The notes under the pieces are model-generated. The model did no database searches, had not been told where the DNA came from, and saw only the letters and a list, made by a program, of their open reading frames with translations. A stretch of DNA of 61,960 bases. Source: Anaerovorax odorimutans. GTDB lineage: Bacteria; Bacillota; Clostridia; Peptostreptococcales; JAAYPU01. A program made the translations under genes and the position numbers. The stretch lies in contig JAENZQ010000020.1 of NCBI GenBank assembly GCA_016841185.1, forward strand, positions 1 through 61,960, in the 5' to 3' direction. Position 1 is the first letter of the stretch, and each line of letters begins with the position of its first letter. Shown piece by piece: positions 47,073-54,970 of this stretch.

Positions 47073-47099
47073 AACGTTATATAAAAACTGCATTGCCAA

Positions 47100-47440
47100 T
47101 AAATAGCGGATTAGTGCCTGACAGGCAAATGCTATTGAAGTTTTTTAAATAGTTTAGTAGACTCTAAGTGACATATAAATACAATACTCGTCTTATTAGA
47201 AACCCTATTTGTCAAAAGGGTTTTAGGGATTAAACACAAGTCTCCACGGTATTAGAGATATAGGATTTTTATAAGACTATATCTCTTTTGCTCTGCATTA
47301 TTAAATTACAATAATAATCAATTATTCCAATATACTACAAAAAAGTGCCTGATAGACAAATTAATTAATTTTGATAAAAAAAAGAAAATAATATGATAAA
47401 ATATTGCATATTATTACAGCAGTTTTCACAGGAGGGTTGT
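47100..47440 (+). promoter_or_regulatory. Control region upstream of the Agr-like locus
   Basis: TGCCTGACAGGCA (47115-47127) is a perfect palindrome around a central A; TGCCTGATAGACA recurs at 47346-47358. Two hairpins lie between: AAACCCT/AGGGTTT near 47200-47223 and AGAGATATAG/CTATATCTCT (about 47253-47285) with a short T run. A likely promoter, TTGATA-17-TGATAA, lies in 47372-47398. No gene is seen before 47441. Confidence 0.55.
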
Positions 47441-47947
47441 ATGGGGGATTTCAACGATGCAGTGTTGATTGCAATATTCATTTCTTTTCCGGAAGCCATA
47501 ATGATGCTTATGATGGGATTCAGTTTGTGCAATATAAGGATCCGTATCTTGAGGATCGTATTAATAGGAGGAATCCAGAGCGTTATTGCTTTTATTGTGA
47601 TTATTTTTCGTTTTAATAATATGGGAGTACATACCATCTTACAAATATTGAGTCTTTGGGTTCTTGTTTCCTTTCTCTACAAAATGAAGTTTCATGAAGC
47701 AATTATACCGGTGCTCTTCGGTTTTTTTACAGACGGAATCCTACAGGGGATATACTTTCCTTTAGCGGAACAGAATTTTGGAACTAACTTGGACAAAGTG
47801 GGTGCAAATTTTCAATATACTTTTATTACTTCCCTTCCGGTTTATATTATTTATTTTTTATTATTAATAATTGTTATAAACAGAAAAATAACATTGTGTC
47901 ATATTACTATGGAAAATGAACACATGGATAAAGAAAAAATGGTATAA
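47441..47947 (+). CDS. AgrC-sensor-like multi-pass membrane protein, paralogue 1
   Basis: A 168-residue protein with five or so helices: FNDAVLIAIFISFPEAIMMLMMGFSL near the N-terminus, then a basic IRIRILR turn and repeated hydrophobic segments. It lacks a kinase domain. The pattern resembles the N-terminal membrane sensor of AgrC-like kinases and is clearly related to the next gene (FPEAI, HTI, ...QYTF/KYTF). ATG 47441 is chosen because AGGAGG lies at 47430-47435. Likely role: peptide sensing or modulation; inferred. Confidence 0.72.
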   Translation: MGDFNDAVLIAIFISFPEAIMMLMMGFSLCNIRIRILRIVLIGGIQSVIAFIVIIFRFNNMGVHTILQILSLWVLVSFLYKMKFHEAIIPVLFGFFTDGILQGIYFPLAEQNFGTNLDKVGANFQYTFITSLPVYIIYFLLLIIVINRKITLCHITMENEHMDKEKMV

Positions 47948-47994
47948 GTTGCTTGATTCCTTTGCTTTAATCAAAAGGTATATTAATCACAAAC

Positions 47995-48007
47995 AGTCTG
48001 ATAGACA
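47995..48007. promoter_or_regulatory. Third copy of the TGCCTGATAGACA-type palindrome
   Basis: AGTCTGATAGACA, 125 bases upstream of the second sensor-like gene. It matches 47346-47358 at 11 of 13 bases. Confidence 0.5.
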
Positions 48008-48119
48008 TTAAAATGTGCCAGTTGAACATCCTTTGTAATATTTAAAGATTCTTTTTGCAAAAAAATGTGGTAAAATGTAAAAAAACGTTTTCAACATTTT
48101 ATTGTCGGAGGGCACATTT

Positions 48120-48611
48120 ATGATTGATTCGATACTCATATCTATTTTTCTATCATTTCCGGAGGCTATATTAGTACTTTTAGTAGGCTTCATGCTTAGC
48201 AATATCAAAGTAAAATTAAAAAAAATCATACTAATCGCCTGTTTACAGGCGGGTATTGCATTTACAATAAGGGTATTAAATATAAGCTTTGGTGCTCATA
48301 CAATTATTCAAGTTATGACATTTTGTATCCTAACTACATTTATTCTTAAAGTTAAACTTCACAGAGTTGTTGTGCCTGTATTGATTGGTATATTTGCTGA
48401 TAGCGTTATACAAGAACTAATTATTTCAGTGGCTAACTTATTGATTACTATTGATTTTACAAGATTAGGTATTGAGTTTAAATATACATTTATGACGTAT
48501 GGTGTATTTGTATACATAGTATTTTTATCTGTAGTATTCATTATAAAAAGACTACGTTTTACAATTTGTGACCTAAGTGTAGAAGGTGAATTTAGTGGAG
48601 AATCGAAATAG
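48120..48611 (+). CDS. AgrC-sensor-like multi-pass membrane protein, paralogue 2
   Basis: A 163-residue protein with five or six helices (FLSFPEAILVLLVGFMLSN, KLKKIILIACLQAGIAF, VVVPVLIGIFADSV...). It aligns throughout with 47441-47947. ATG 48120 has GGAGGG 7 bases upstream. Its last 17 bases overlap the kinase gene, so the membrane module and the kinase are made as separate but coupled polypeptides. Confidence 0.75.
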   Translation: MIDSILISIFLSFPEAILVLLVGFMLSNIKVKLKKIILIACLQAGIAFTIRVLNISFGAHTIIQVMTFCILTTFILKVKLHRVVVPVLIGIFADSVIQELIISVANLLITIDFTRLGIEFKYTFMTYGVFVYIVFLSVVFIIKRLRFTICDLSVEGEFSGESK

Positions 48612-49458
48612 ATATATTATTTTAATCACTATGCTTATTCAAGCTTCATTATTGATTATTATAGATTTTACTATTATCAATACATCTTCTTTGGATATGC
48701 TGAAAAACAGTATTCCGGTATTTAATATCGTTATTTTGATTACGACTGTTTTGATGCTGGTTTCACTTAAAAAAGCAAATACATTCATTAAAAAGGAAAC
48801 AGAGCTGGAGCTGTTGAAAAGCAATATGAAGAACACTGAAGATTTATTGAATCTCCTCCGGACCCAGAGACATGATTACTTGTCTCATATCCAGGCCATC
48901 GAATCACTGGTCATTTTAAATGAACAGGAGGAGCTGGCGGAGTATATAAAAGGGATTTCAAAAGAGTATCGGATCACCAATGAGATGATCCGGCTGGGGA
49001 ATCCGATTCTAACGGCTGTTATCAACACTAAGAAAGAAATAGCTGAAAAAAAAGGCATCTTATTTCATGTGAAATGCAAGAATAAAGTTTCCTTGCACGG
49101 GATCAACTCATGGGAGTTATCCAGTATTATTTCAAATCTTATTGAAAATGCTATAGAAGAAGCCTCTGTAGTGGAAAATGAAAAGTGGATCAAAATCACT
49201 ATTACTCATATTCATGGTAATTTTATATTTAGAATAGAGAATACAGGGAAATTAAATGATAAAGTACGAGACAGCATTTTCGAGCCTGGTGTATCTTCTA
49301 AAAGTGCAGCCGGAAGAGGATACGGTCTCTTTATCGTGAAAAATATAGTTGAAAAATATAATGGCAGTATTGAATGTAATACTGGAGAGGGTAATTCTAT
49401 TTATTTTCAGGTAACATTACCAAGTGAGGAGGATGAGTATGGTAAAAAGGCTGTCTGA
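48595..49458 (+). CDS. AgrC-like sensor histidine kinase (GHKL) with a reduced membrane domain
   Basis: The 287-residue protein has only two N-terminal helices (about 6-28 and 35-60), a coiled segment, an H-box TQRHDYLSHIQAIESL, N-box IISNLIENAIEEA, and G-boxes EPGVSSKSAAGRGYGLFIV. This is the AgrC/NatK/Spo0B-like kinase core (RHDY motif), but AgrC usually has six helices. GTG 48595 is preferred (AAGGTG at 48583-48588). Overlaps AgrB by 20 bases. Confidence 0.82.
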   Translation: MENRNRYIILITMLIQASLLIIIDFTIINTSSLDMLKNSIPVFNIVILITTVLMLVSLKKANTFIKKETELELLKSNMKNTEDLLNLLRTQRHDYLSHIQAIESLVILNEQEELAEYIKGISKEYRITNEMIRLGNPILTAVINTKKEIAEKKGILFHVKCKNKVSLHGINSWELSSIISNLIENAIEEASVVENEKWIKITITHIHGNFIFRIENTGKLNDKVRDSIFEPGVSSKSAAGRGYGLFIVKNIVEKYNGSIECNTGEGNSIYFQVTLPSEEDEYGKKAV

Positions 49459-50050
49459 TAATATTGCATCCTATCTAAGCTATGAATTGCATTGTGACCA
49501 TGATAAAAGAGAGGTACTGTCCTATGGTTTGCAGATTGTTTTAGGAGGCTTTTTAAAAGTAAGCACATTGCTTGTTCTTTCGTTGATTTTAGGTATTTTT
49601 AGTTATACTATGATTGGCATGTTTTCTTTTTCCGCATTTAGAACAATCATCGGAGGTGCTCATAAAGATACTTATGGTAAATGCTTTATAACTAGTATTG
49701 TTTTACTGCTTGTTATAGGAACCATGGGAAAGTTATTTGGTAGCTTAATGACAAACCATATGTGGCTTTCTTTTATTACCTTTGCATATGCTATGGTTGT
49801 TATCTTGATATGGGTACCTGCAGGAACAGAGAAGAAGGAAATCAAAAATCGTAAATTAAGGATTAAAATGAAAATAAAGGCGGGTATCTTATTGACCCTA
49901 TGGTTGATTTTAGTATTATTAAGCCCAATATATAATTATCATCAATATATGTTTTCCAGTATTTTAGGCGTTTTTTCAACATTTTTCTTCGTCACGCCAC
50001 CGGCCTACAAGCTAATGAAAATCAAATTTAAATTAAAGGGGGTAATATGA
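49439..50050 (+). CDS. agrB: AgrB-like autoinducer peptide-processing protease
   Basis: A 203-residue membrane protein with the AgrB pattern: FGxSFR-like FSFSAFRTIIGGAHKDTYGKCF carrying catalytic His in GGAHKDTYGKC and a Cys about 7 residues further (GKCF), then several helices. It cleaves the AgrD precursor and forms the ring. ATG 49439 fits AGGAGG at 49427-49432. The end overlaps the AgrD start. Confidence 0.9.
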   Translation: MVKRLSDNIASYLSYELHCDHDKREVLSYGLQIVLGGFLKVSTLLVLSLILGIFSYTMIGMFSFSAFRTIIGGAHKDTYGKCFITSIVLLLVIGTMGKLFGSLMTNHMWLSFITFAYAMVVILIWVPAGTEKKEIKNRKLRIKMKIKAGILLTLWLILVLLSPIYNYHQYMFSSILGVFSTFFFVTPPAYKLMKIKFKLKGVI

Positions 50051-50181
50051 TGTTTAAAAAATCATTATTATCAGCAGCTGCTTTTATGCTTACTGTTGTT
50101 GCAGCTACAGGAGTAGGTATTTATTCACTACATTGGATGTATGAACCAGATGCTCCGGATTGCTTAAAGAAAGAACTGTAG
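50047..50181 (+). CDS. agrD: AgrD-like autoinducing peptide precursor (Ser-ring)
   Basis: A 44-residue peptide. It has an amphipathic hydrophobic N-terminus (KKSLLSAAAFMLTVVAATGVG), a core IYSLHWMYEP and an acidic tail DAPDCLKKEL. In clostridial AgrD the core is C-L-W-F-I-Y-Q-P; here Ser29-equivalent (YSLHWMYEP) replaces the ring Cys, predicting a lactone instead of a thiolactone. The start (ATG 50047 or 50050) overlaps the AgrB stop. A tail Cys at position 39 is outside the usual ring position. Confidence 0.82.
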   Translation: MMFKKSLLSAAAFMLTVVAATGVGIYSLHWMYEPDAPDCLKKEL

Positions 50182-50187
50182 AGATTT

Positions 50188-50913
50188 ATGAATGTTTTGA
50201 TATGTGATGATGATAATTATGTAAGAAAAATGTTGGAAAAAGTAGTTTCCGAAAATGTTAATGTGAGCAAAGTATTTATGGCTGGTGACGGACTGGATGC
50301 TGTCAGGGTTGCAGGGAGCAACCATATAGATGTGGCATTGTTGGACATTGACATGCCGAATCTGGATGGTCTGGAATCTGCAAAGATCATCAAAAAAGCA
50401 GCACCCAATACTGAATTTATTTTCATCACAGGTTATATGGAGTATGCGATAGATTCCTTTTGCGTACATCCCTATGACTATATCCTTAAACCTATTGATA
50501 TCGACAGACTTAATGAGGTCCTTGATGAAATAGGTGAGATTCGCAAAACACAGAAAGAGAAAGAGGCAAAAGAAGTTAAGAAATTCAGTGTAAAAAAAGG
50601 GCAGGAAATGGTCCTCATTCCCCTGGATGAAATATTGTTTTTTGAAAGAGCAAACAGGGAAGTGTTGCTGAATACCCGTGATGAAGCCTATAGGGTGAAT
50701 AAATCACTGATGGATATTGAAAATGATTTGCCAAGCAATATCTTCTTGAGAACACATAAATCTTTTATTGTGAATAAGAACAAGATAAAGAAAATTAATG
50801 TGGTAGGAAACAAATCATTTCAGATCCAATTCTTTTACTCCGATAAGGATGCAGTTTTAAACAGGCATAAGTATGATGATGTCATCAAGTATCTTTCTGT
50901 GAATGTCGGATGA
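50188..50913 (+). CDS. LytTR response regulator (AgrA-like)
   Basis: The 241-residue protein has a receiver domain (MNVLICDDDNYVRKML, VALLDIDMPNLDG with phospho-Asp about 53, Thr in FIFITGY, Lys in YILKPID) and a C-terminal LytTR DNA-binding domain (EILFFERANREVLLN, LRTHKSFIVNKNKIKKI). It is the natural partner of the kinase and probably binds the upstream repeats at 47115 and 47346. Seven bases after AgrD. Confidence 0.93.
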   Translation: MNVLICDDDNYVRKMLEKVVSENVNVSKVFMAGDGLDAVRVAGSNHIDVALLDIDMPNLDGLESAKIIKKAAPNTEFIFITGYMEYAIDSFCVHPYDYILKPIDIDRLNEVLDEIGEIRKTQKEKEAKEVKKFSVKKGQEMVLIPLDEILFFERANREVLLNTRDEAYRVNKSLMDIENDLPSNIFLRTHKSFIVNKNKIKKINVVGNKSFQIQFFYSDKDAVLNRHKYDDVIKYLSVNVG

Positions 50914-50924
50914 AACAAAAAAGC

Positions 50925-50955
50925 AGCAGCCGCTAAGGCTGCTTCGCTTTTTTTT
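50925..50955 (+). terminator. Terminator of the Agr-like operon
   Basis: AGCAGCC (50925-50931) pairs with GGCTGCT (50937-50943), then TCGC and eight T. Confidence 0.85.
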
Positions 50956-52648: not shown

Positions 52649-53704
52649 TTGGAAAAACTTCTTTTGGTTTTGTGCGATAGAGATACAAATTATTTAAACG
52701 CTTTAAGTGAATATATTGTAAATTATGAGCCAATGTTTAAAATAGCGGCTTTTTCGGATGACCGTCAATTAAATGCATATCTTAAAGAAAGAAAGAATTT
52801 TCATATTATATTAATAAGTGAAGATATTGCCGATACAGTTCAGGACAGCAGGCATATTTCCATCATACTTTCTGAAACCGGTCAATCGGAAGAAACAAAG
52901 GAAAACAACAGGTATAGAATTTGTAAGTATATGCCTGTCAGTAAAATCATTGAAGAGGTCAAATATATCTATGGAGAAGCATCGAGAGAAATTTTACCGG
53001 TATCTATAGGAAAAGGGGCAAGATTGATTAGCTTTTTTTCACCTTCAGGCGGAGCGGGAACATCCTCAATTGCTGTTGCAGTATCCAGATTTTTAAGCAT
53101 AAGAGATAAAAAAGTATTATATTTTAACCTGGAAAGTATCCCTTCAAGTGAAGCATTTTTCAACTGCAGTCCTGAAAAAGGAAAAAATCTTTCTGATTTT
53201 TTGTACTATCTCTTTATCAAAGAAGAACCCAATATGGCTTCTTTGATAAAACGCTTTATTTTTACGGATAAATGGCATGTGGATTGTTTTTATCCGCAAA
53301 GTAACTATAAGGATTTATTGCAGCTCAACCGTGAAGAAATCATTTATCTTTTAGAGATGCTTTCGGAAAAGACGGACTATGAATATATATGTATTGACTT
53401 TTCAAGCAGCATACTTGAAAAAGAGTTTATATTTTCGCTATGTTCAAAGAACTTTATGGTTATTTCAGATTCCGTTTCCAACTGGCTGAAATATAAAATT
53501 TATCATCAATCCAATACTGAGAGCAGCGCTTCAGTTGATTCCATCCTAATATTAAACCGATGTACGGATGAAGAAAAGGCTGGCCTTATAATAGCAAACG
53601 ACCCTGACAGCTTTAATGAAAAAGAAGGTTATTTACAGATTTCTTTAGAGGGAGAGTTTGGAAAAAGCGCAAAGAGGGTAGCGGATCATATCTTGTGTGG
53701 TTGA
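52649..53704 (+). CDS. tadZ: TadZ/CpaE-like ATPase
   Basis: The 351-residue protein has an N-terminal receiver-like domain without clear acidic pocket (VLCDRDTNYLNALSEYI) and a C-terminal MinD/ParA-like ATPase with deviant Walker A FSPSGGAGTSSIA and IDFSSS. These proteins position the Tad pilus machine. TTG start behind AAGGTG. First gene of the Tad operon. Confidence 0.85.
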   Translation: MEKLLLVLCDRDTNYLNALSEYIVNYEPMFKIAAFSDDRQLNAYLKERKNFHIILISEDIADTVQDSRHISIILSETGQSEETKENNRYRICKYMPVSKIIEEVKYIYGEASREILPVSIGKGARLISFFSPSGGAGTSSIAVAVSRFLSIRDKKVLYFNLESIPSSEAFFNCSPEKGKNLSDFLYYLFIKEEPNMASLIKRFIFTDKWHVDCFYPQSNYKDLLQLNREEIIYLLEMLSEKTDYEYICIDFSSSILEKEFIFSLCSKNFMVISDSVSNWLKYKIYHQSNTESSASVDSILILNRCTDEEKAGLIIANDPDSFNEKEGYLQISLEGEFGKSAKRVADHILCG

Positions 53705-53743
53705 GTGGTTGAGATGTTTAGTACAAATAAAAAGGGTGAGACT

Positions 53744-54970
53744 ATGAAAGATGTATTAACGAAGTCTTGTATTGAGAAAACAAGAAATGTGATTAAAATA
53801 TCTGATGAGAAGTATTCGGACGAGTCCGTAAAAGAAATGATCGAAGGCATCGTTTTAGAGATAACAAGAGCATCAGGCCTGAGTTACAAAGATAAAAAAG
53901 AAATCATAGATATTGTTTTTAATTCCACACGAAAGGACTTGGATATCCTGCAGCCTTATGCAGAAGATGAAGATGTAACTGAAATAATGGTGAATGGACC
54001 TGAGAATATTTTTATTGAGAAGAGTGGAAATATATACCGGATAAAGGATAAGTTTTCAGACAGGGAACAATTGGAGGAAGTAATCAGAAGAGTTGCCGCT
54101 AAGGTACACAGGGAGATTAATGATATGAATCCTATTGTAGATGTCAGATTGGAAGACGGCTCAAGGGTAAATGCCGTTTATAAGAATATCGCTTTAAACG
54201 GTCCTATTCTTACCATAAGAAAATTTCCTAAAAAAAGCATTAAAATGGAAGATTTGATACGTTTTCAGACCATAACCCCTGAAGCGGCTGAAATGCTTGA
54301 AAAAATGGTGAAAGGGAAATTTAACATATTTATATCCGGTGGAACCAGTTCAGGAAAAACCACTTTTTTAAATGCTCTTTCAGATTATATCCCTAAAGAA
54401 GAAAGAATCATCACCATTGAGGATTCGGCCGAATTAAAAATCGAAAATATTGAAAACCTGGTAACGATGGAAACGAAAAATGCCAATGTACAGGGAAAAG
54501 GAGAAGTCACGATAAGACAGCTTATTAAGACATCTTTAAGAATGAGACCGGACAGGATTATTGTAGGAGAGGTCCGAGGGGCGGAGGCCTTGGATATGCT
54601 TCAAGCCATGAATACAGGTCATGAAGGATCGCTTTCAACAGGTCATGCAAATTCGCCTGAAGGAATGGTCAGCAGATTGGAAGCCATGGTCCTTTCAGCC
54701 GCCGAATTGCCTTTAGATGCCATAAGGAAACAAATTGCTTCGGCTATTGATATCATTGTACATTTAGGACGTTTAAATGATAAAACCAGGCGAGTTTTGA
54801 AAATTACGGAGATAATCGGACTCAAAGACGGCGAAATCATCTTAAATCCCTTGTTTGAATATAAAAGAACAGATAAGGAAAAAGGTGGTTATGTGGAAAG
54901 TTTAGAAGCTACCGGAAATCATCTTTACAAGGCAGATAAGTTTCAGATAACGGGGATCCGGTGGGAATAG
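53744..54970 (+). CDS. tadA: TadA/CpaF pilus assembly ATPase
   Basis: The 408-residue secretion ATPase has Walker A SGGTSSGKTT, the Asp box IITIEDSAEL, Walker B DRIIVGEVRGAEALDMLQAMNTGHEGSLSTGHAN and an N-terminal domain (PYAEDEDVTEIMVNGPENIFIE). ATG 53744 has AAGGGTGAG. It powers polymerisation of Flp-type pili. Confidence 0.93.
   Translation: MKDVLTKSCIEKTRNVIKISDEKYSDESVKEMIEGIVLEITRASGLSYKDKKEIIDIVFNSTRKDLDILQPYAEDEDVTEIMVNGPENIFIEKSGNIYRIKDKFSDREQLEEVIRRVAAKVHREINDMNPIVDVRLEDGSRVNAVYKNIALNGPILTIRKFPKKSIKMEDLIRFQTITPEAAEMLEKMVKGKFNIFISGGTSSGKTTFLNALSDYIPKEERIITIEDSAELKIENIENLVTMETKNANVQGKGEVTIRQLIKTSLRMRPDRIIVGEVRGAEALDMLQAMNTGHEGSLSTGHANSPEGMVSRLEAMVLSAAELPLDAIRKQIASAIDIIVHLGRLNDKTRRVLKITEIIGLKDGEIILNPLFEYKRTDKEKGGYVESLEATGNHLYKADKFQITGIRWE

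Follow-up and report, generated by a model that had tools for sequence, protein, structure and literature searches.

An agr-like quorum-sensing locus of Anaerovorax odorimutans with an AgrC-type receptor probably encoded as two proteins

Introduction

In the textbook agr system, the receptor is a single chain. Some other kinases sense through a separate membrane protein, as do BceS with BceAB and UhpB with UhpC. Here we describe an agr-like locus of Anaerovorax odorimutans, located on a stretch of 61,960 nt (contig JAENZQ010000020.1, positions 1-61,960, forward strand; this whole stretch is referred to below as the window). Two membrane proteins, called sensor modules 1 and 2, are encoded there ahead of a histidine kinase with two N-terminal helices. 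Taken as a whole, the locus is very probably an agr quorum-sensing system in which the AgrC-type receptor is divided between two proteins. This split receptor is supported by the gene content, by the adjacency and co-conservation of the genes, by homology of the module to what the kinase lacks of AgrC, and by the module's predicted fold; within this model, we infer the assembly of the receptor, peptide binding, regulation and the role of module 1.

In Clostridium perfringens, agrB and agrD are reported to share a transcript with two preceding genes, whose products are hypothetical proteins. An agrB mutant was complemented by only one of three plasmids, the one with both of these genes as well, and the authors see in this evidence for a single operon (PMC2706048). 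This complementation may reflect the promoter. VirS, encoded apart from agrBD, is reported to be a receptor by itself (PMC7492741, PMC2706048). An operon of agrB and agrD alone is described for several pathogenic clostridia (PMC8534292), and the receptor for AgrD1 of Clostridium difficile is said to be still elusive (PMC10602386). A lactone-ring AgrD pentapeptide has been reported in Clostridium thermocellum (PMC5322536). Among open-licence papers, we found neither a split AgrC nor the modules presented here described.

Results

Gene content of the locus

The locus comprises, all on the forward strand, the genes for module 1 (168 aa, 47441-47947), module 2 (163 aa, 48120-48611), a GHKL histidine kinase (290 aa, 48586-49458), AgrB (49439-50050), AgrD (50047-50181) and an AgrA-like LytTR response regulator (50188-50913). 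An earlier note on this DNA had described two paralogous multi-pass proteins of 163-168 residues, a GHKL kinase with only two helices, AgrB, AgrD and a LytTR regulator, and all of these were recovered. Modules 1 and 2 share 35% identity over 162 columns (E 3e-39), and module 1 is matched by the hidden Markov model (HMM) of the module family. The kinase contains SPOB_a and HATPase_c_5 domains, preceded by hydrophobic segments at residues 11-29 and 43-61. AgrB matches PF04647 (E 2.6e-35), AgrD has homologues and matches TIGR04223 (31.1 bits, cut-off 19), and the regulator has both a receiver (PF00072) and a LytTR domain (PF04397). An AgrB peptidase, an AgrD precursor adjoining it and a LytTR regulator with a receiver, as expected of an agr locus, are thus all present. 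Because a serine occupies the ring position of AgrD, the ring Ser-Leu-His-Trp-Met is predicted to be a lactone.

The overlaps between genes that had also been claimed are found in part. Module 2 and kinase genes overlap by 26 nt (if the kinase starts at the GTG at 48586), kinase and agrB by 20 nt, and agrB and agrD by 4 nt; module 1, however, is separated from module 2 by 172 nt, and the regulator gene from agrD by 6 nt. The same gene order, both modules included, was observed in all three genomes examined for the family (this one and two others, from three genera), and therefore does not result from chance. The A. odorimutans genome contains a single AgrB (E<=0.01) and one kinase of this subfamily (E 6.6e-122), its other 23 matches having E values of 8.5e-21 or worse.

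Kinase and relation to AgrC

The window kinase retains the GHKL ATPase of AgrC and a SPOB_a-type dimerisation helix with a conserved histidine; its histidines are H96 (in RHDY) and H101. It differs from AgrC in that the polytopic sensor is not part of the same chain, the kinase having two helices and the modules being separate. The loop between the kinase helices is short and, judged by eye, there is no extracellular domain able to sense alone. The AlphaFold model of the kinase was poor (pLDDT 61.5) and was therefore used for helix count only.

When compared to the staphylococcal AgrC profile NF046015 (414 positions), the window kinase aligned to positions 137-396 with a score of 35.2 bits, far below the curated cut-off of 500, and the modules alone gave no match. 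The missing N-terminal part was found in natural fusions. Indeed, an HMM for which only separate modules had been used recognised the N-terminal parts of ten long kinases (436-459 aa; E 1.8e-28 to 9e-7), over about residues 1-160 in the best fusions. The five fusions tested aligned to NF046015 from positions 3-8 to 393-399; with the long kinase of locus L163 included, the six alignments ran from 3-14 to 393-399. In five loci (L068, L148, L150, L151, L152), genes for AgrB, AgrD and a LytTR-type regulator come after the fusion. L163 itself encodes a full-length kinase adjoining agrB, agrD and regulator, and over its residues 1-161 is collinear with the module profile (E 2e-4, against 0.059 to 0.73 for seven controls; these are alignments against single sequences, and their probabilities are rough). 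By way of the fused intermediates, homology of the module to the sensor half of AgrC appears well supported.

Sensor modules

No match was obtained for either window module in Pfam and NCBIfam at E<=1, nor in NCBIfam at E<=10; a split receptor therefore escapes annotation. The AlphaFold model of module 2 (mean pLDDT 88.4, pTM 0.82, from an alignment of 11 sequences) has five helices, at residues 2-26, 33-53, 59-76, 80-108 and 120-145. With the two kinase helices this makes seven, compared to the six that the earlier note gave for the sensor of AgrC. Among solved structures in the PDB, Foldseek gave a best E value of 4.3, and no AgrC sensor structure was found for comparison; VIA-align gave a best Z of 4.7, to a rhodopsin.

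Both modules are members of a widespread family. With module 2 as query, 65 of 297 genomes of the order gave matches, and iteration of the module HMM converged on 80 proteins from the window and 80 fetched loci. Together, the loci reached through modules and through kinases gave 109 module rows. Of these, 37 directly precede a kinase gene and 3 a further module, 10 are kinase fusions, 29 precede agrB in loci lacking a kinase, and 30 lie elsewhere (a gap limit assigned L169 to the class 'other', although by the kinase profile A3 it is split). Query P0002 found no module in viral contigs or plasmids; AgrB, searched against phages, had two weak matches.

Loci found through the kinase

The kinase profile was searched in the 297 genomes, and 40 kinase loci that had not been found through modules were fetched. 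These were most of the strongest matches and a selection of weaker ones; two strong matches at contig edges (G102) were omitted. Since iteration led an initial kinase HMM away to other histidine kinases, all kinase counts use the A3 profile. Twenty of the 40 loci have a separate upstream module and nine a fused one, while the remaining eleven have none. Among the closest 16 (L132-L147), 15 are split, none is fused and one lacks a module. The 34 kinases closest to that of the window include 32 with a separate module, one fused and one with none (18 of the 34 having been found through the module).

In the kinase tree, the window kinase falls within a supported group of nine split kinases. A second, distant group is also split, mostly in the order agrB-agrD-module-kinase, and the module tree shows groups corresponding to those of the kinase tree. 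Thirteen loci, most of them close duplicates of the kinase-less type described below, contribute no rows to the module tree. Both trees have a midpoint root only, with which fission and fusion are both compatible.

Altogether, the natural fusions, the collinearity with the AgrC profile and the presence of modules beside kinases found independently of them bear out the earlier proposal that the sensor is encoded as a separate module. That the modules may be exchangeable, as also proposed, draws its support from gene neighbourhoods, in which the partner is either a kinase or a GGDEF/HD enzyme; the proposal as a whole is borne out in part.

Several observations weigh against the split receptor. 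Eleven of the 40 kinase-led loci have no module, and two of these kinases (L142, L149) fall inside the split group of the window kinase. Both points would be expected if the kinase worked without modules as an ordinary two-helix sensor and their adjacency were incidental, an explanation that we consider very improbable. Indeed, eight of the eleven module-less kinases form two branches of their own, one of which includes L156, whose kinase has a third helix; L163 is a long branch and of full length; and a separate module accompanies 32 of the 34 closest kinases. The link to AgrC is also less direct than could be wished: the match between L163 and the module profile has a probability of 22%, so that the likeness to an ordinary AgrC N-terminus is weak and the connection rests on the intermediate fusions. 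In the order-wide census given below, 49 of 128 AgrB genes lack both a module and a listed kinase in their vicinity. Finally, 28 modules form a clade of their own without agr neighbours; the fold is therefore not limited to use with Agr. Together with four of 48 module-containing genomes that lack AgrB, this clade means that peptide sensing cannot be assumed for every module. It also qualifies the survey of neighbours suggested in the earlier note: paired module-kinase loci do recur, but homologues without kinase or agrBD exist (these 28 loci).

The modules of this clade (L044, L055 and others, 28 rows) typically adjoin a gene of about 200 codons, which in L055 encodes an ECF transporter S component (PF12822). 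By eye, their neighbours are Tex-like upstream and TsaE/TsaB/RimI-like downstream.

Two further kinds of kinase were noticed among these loci. The split kinases of L036, L037 and L038 (6884-7765, 8597-9478 and 6079-6963) lack the histidine of the RHD motif, which is replaced by Y, L and S, respectively, and keep the next histidine. None of the three has a receiver-type regulator directly after agrD: L037 has a LytTR-only protein there, and L036 and L038 an RsbW-like HATPase_c_2 protein. A regulator reduced to its LytTR domain was considered for all three loci and rejected, as it holds for L037 only. Signalling without phosphotransfer is possible in these loci. The second kind consists of short GHKL kinases of about 310 aa (L156, L158, L160, L166), with no module and a LytTR-type regulator as the next gene. 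Some of their genomes (G155, G123) also carry a kinase-less module-agrBD locus, and it is conceivable that such kinases pair with modules in trans.

Frequency in the order and the phylum

Modules were found in 48, and AgrB in 65, of 138 genomes of the order. AgrB is present in 44 of the 48 genomes with modules, compared to 21 of the 90 others (p 2e-15, counted by eye and uncorrected for kinship). After four rows with several internal stops had been dropped, 128 AgrB genes were counted. A separate module and a short kinase lie near 32 of them, a module without a listed kinase near 20, a fused kinase near 6, a long kinase without module match near 18, and a short kinase without module near 3 (two of them at contig edges). 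Kinases were listed to about E 1e-42, which makes the classes without kinase upper bounds.

In a draw across the phylum, 149 of 398 genomes contained a module at E<=1e-6. Twenty of these loci, chosen non-randomly among the higher-ranking matches, comprised five tandem pairs, one fusion and 14 further loci. These 14 loci hold 15 single modules, of which 12 have an intact kinase gene directly downstream (gap of -41 to +49 nt), two a broken kinase and one a kinase open reading frame (ORF) 1593 nt away. The putative split receptor is thus a common form that recurs across clostridia and related Firmicutes. In L188 (G533), the kinase gene adjoining the module is interrupted by an opposite-strand ORF of 564 aa lying between its parts, possibly a mobile insertion.

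Kinase-less modules and a GGDEF/HD enzyme

The 29 module rows directly before agrB without a kinase are what would be expected if the modules were accessory proteins of AgrB, acting in peptide processing, export or stability and standing outside the receptor. We consider this very improbable. All ten fusions join a module to a kinase and none to AgrB, and modules occur with a kinase or a GGDEF/HD gene but no agrB nearby in L112, L132, L147, L104 and L201. Moreover, a signalling enzyme is encoded beside nearly all of the kinase-less modules themselves: in 28 of the 29 agrB-linked cases, a same-strand gene within 2 kb downstream resembles the 560-aa GGDEF/HD protein of L072 (E<=1e-20). Such a gene was found beside one of the 30 modules classed as elsewhere (L104) and beside none of the 40 kinase-linked or 10 fused modules. 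Pfam detects GGDEF and HD_5 in L072, L180, L181 and L184, and GGDEF in the cut-off L182; on reading, the HD_5 domain seems to be of the HD-GYP type.

The association was also seen from the side of the enzyme. In the 138 genomes, 18 matches start at the enzyme N-terminus (E<=1.3e-118), and by comparison of coordinates 17 of them adjoin a module, the exception being L200. The other enzyme matches align from residue 83 or later, and by the same comparison none adjoins a module. In L201, the module lies 39 nt before the enzyme and agrB and agrD were not found in 8 kb; L104 (G120) is alike. The module therefore tracks the output protein even without AgrB, which fits the expectation for a sensor.

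This arrangement suggests a cyclic di-GMP (c-di-GMP) output for the kinase-less modules. A tentative extension, to which we give slightly less than an even chance, is that the module may be a general peptide-sensing plug with interchangeable outputs, either a two-helix kinase or, in kinase-less loci, a membrane GGDEF/HD enzyme whose c-di-GMP signalling would come under the Agr peptide. If true, this would supply receptors for some agrBD loci thought to be receptor-less.

The module pair

Among the three family genomes, identities are 35-59% for module 1, 49-56% for module 2, 72-79% for the kinase, 57-65% for AgrB, 65-70% for AgrD and 73-85% for the regulator, and in each of the three genome pairs the two modules show lower conservation than the four remaining proteins. 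A broader comparison used the 124 of 496 pairs of 32 split loci whose kinase cores are more than 60% identical. Median identity was 0.66 in the kinase core, against 0.47 in modules and 0.46 both in AgrB and in the helices of the kinase itself; modules thus evolve at a pace similar to AgrB and the kinase helices, and more rapidly than the core. A single supported clade holds all six modules of the family, and the duplication therefore occurred within this lineage, although the upstream G001 copy sits on a long branch at an unsure position.

Upstream of each window module lies an operator-like site on the forward strand: GCCTGATAGAC at 47347-47357 for module 1, matching the motif GCCWGNNNNAC, and GCCAGTTGAAC at 48017-48027 for module 2, with a related half-site GTCTGATAGAC 21 bp upstream. 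Repeats bound by LytTR proteins have this spacing of 21 bp. The motif is found 94-125 nt before every module start of the family (6/6, in all three genera), a count that is not independent of its discovery, the pattern having been derived from the same alignment. It has 13 matches in the whole window on both strands. The half-site of the module 2 type is clear in the window and G001, and weaker in G002. A conserved motif before both modules suggests that the regulator controls both through these putative operators.

Module 1 may provide a second specificity, form part of a mixed dimer or act as a decoy; the earlier note tentatively saw the two variants as serving self and non-self or two signals. 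A decoy or antagonist would bind the kinase or the peptide without activation, and so set a threshold or block foreign peptides. Module 1 is kept in all three family genomes with its own operator-like site and evolves fast, as such a protein might, but a second active sensor fits these data equally. Tandem modules also occur at kinase-less loci: L180-L183 have the order module-module-agrB-agrD, continued into the GGDEF gene in L180, L181 and L182 and cut by the contig end in L183, and L184 has module-module-agrD-GGDEF, with an inverted agrB further on. A decoy for a kinase makes no sense there, and we regard a decoy as possible but rather unlikely. These same five phylum loci are in favour of a mixed dimer, in which the two modules would form a working sensor only together, as is the dimeric nature of AgrC-type kinases. 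Against this, a single module suffices in most loci, and module 1 has an upstream region of its own, 172 nt from module 2. The mixed dimer is, in our estimation, as doubtful as the decoy.

Flanking sequences

A noncoding stretch upstream of the locus (47093-47295, forward strand) aligns across the three genera, though the gene upstream of it differs in one. At 47115-47127 it carries an operator-like repeat, TGCCTGACAGGCA; it also has a hairpin, AGAGATATAG...CTATATCTCT, followed by TTTTGCT. It had no match in Rfam at E<=1, and could be a small RNA (compare RNAIII) or a leader. A terminator-like hairpin was detected by the hairpin scan 3' of the regulator gene (50925-50950, forward strand); between 46900 and 51100, seven such hairpins were observed on both strands, compared to 1.5 expected. 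Shortly downstream, a T2SSE-type ATPase (PF00437) is found in the region 52649-54970, preceded by a 351-aa protein without Pfam match. This is possibly the start of a Tad-type pilus locus.

Discussion

In the split-receptor model, AgrB and AgrD would, by family membership, make a cyclic peptide. The five-helix module would be the counterpart of helices 1-5 of AgrC and would contain the peptide-binding part or give it its shape, while the kinase would retain the last two helices, the dimerisation helix with its phosphorylated histidine, and the ATPase. Module and kinase would assemble in the membrane and the peptide signal would pass to the kinase, which would phosphorylate the LytTR regulator; the latter would then activate the locus through the putative operators preceding both modules. 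The gene of module 2 overlaps that of the kinase, and module 2 would be the main kinase partner. Module 1 would be an extra, co-regulated subunit, pairing with the kinase or with module 2 and altering specificity or sensitivity.

A split receptor permits several sensors per kinase, which bears on the evolution of peptide specificity, and the modules are natural parts for exchangeable peptide sensors. With the kinase-less branch, the question of the peptide sensor in clostridia with agrBD only becomes testable, since this branch offers a candidate sensor gene adjoining agrB and a candidate output, c-di-GMP.

How the locus relates to known systems depends on the part considered. The C. perfringens agr-like operon also has two genes for hypothetical proteins upstream of agrBD, but its VirS is detached from agrBD. 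Agr1 of C. difficile resembles the kinase-less loci in having agrB and agrD without a kinase gene, whereas the loci described here have a module and mostly a GGDEF/HD gene. The lactone pentapeptide of C. thermocellum AgrD is like the ring predicted here. BceS and UhpB share with the window kinase a minimal membrane part and the delegation of sensing; their partner is a transporter or a relative of one, while here it would be the detached front half of a receptor. Finally, AgrC of Staphylococcus aureus (NF046015, HPK10-type) is matched in the kinase half, by the fusions over nearly the whole profile, and in the company of agrB, agrD and a LytTR regulator. It differs in that the receptor here consists of two polypeptides, the sensor half is duplicated, and the kinase reaches 35 bits against a cut-off of 500. 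The locus is thus presumably AgrC-like in its working but falls outside AgrC by the single-chain definition, and would be best described as a split, modular variant of it.

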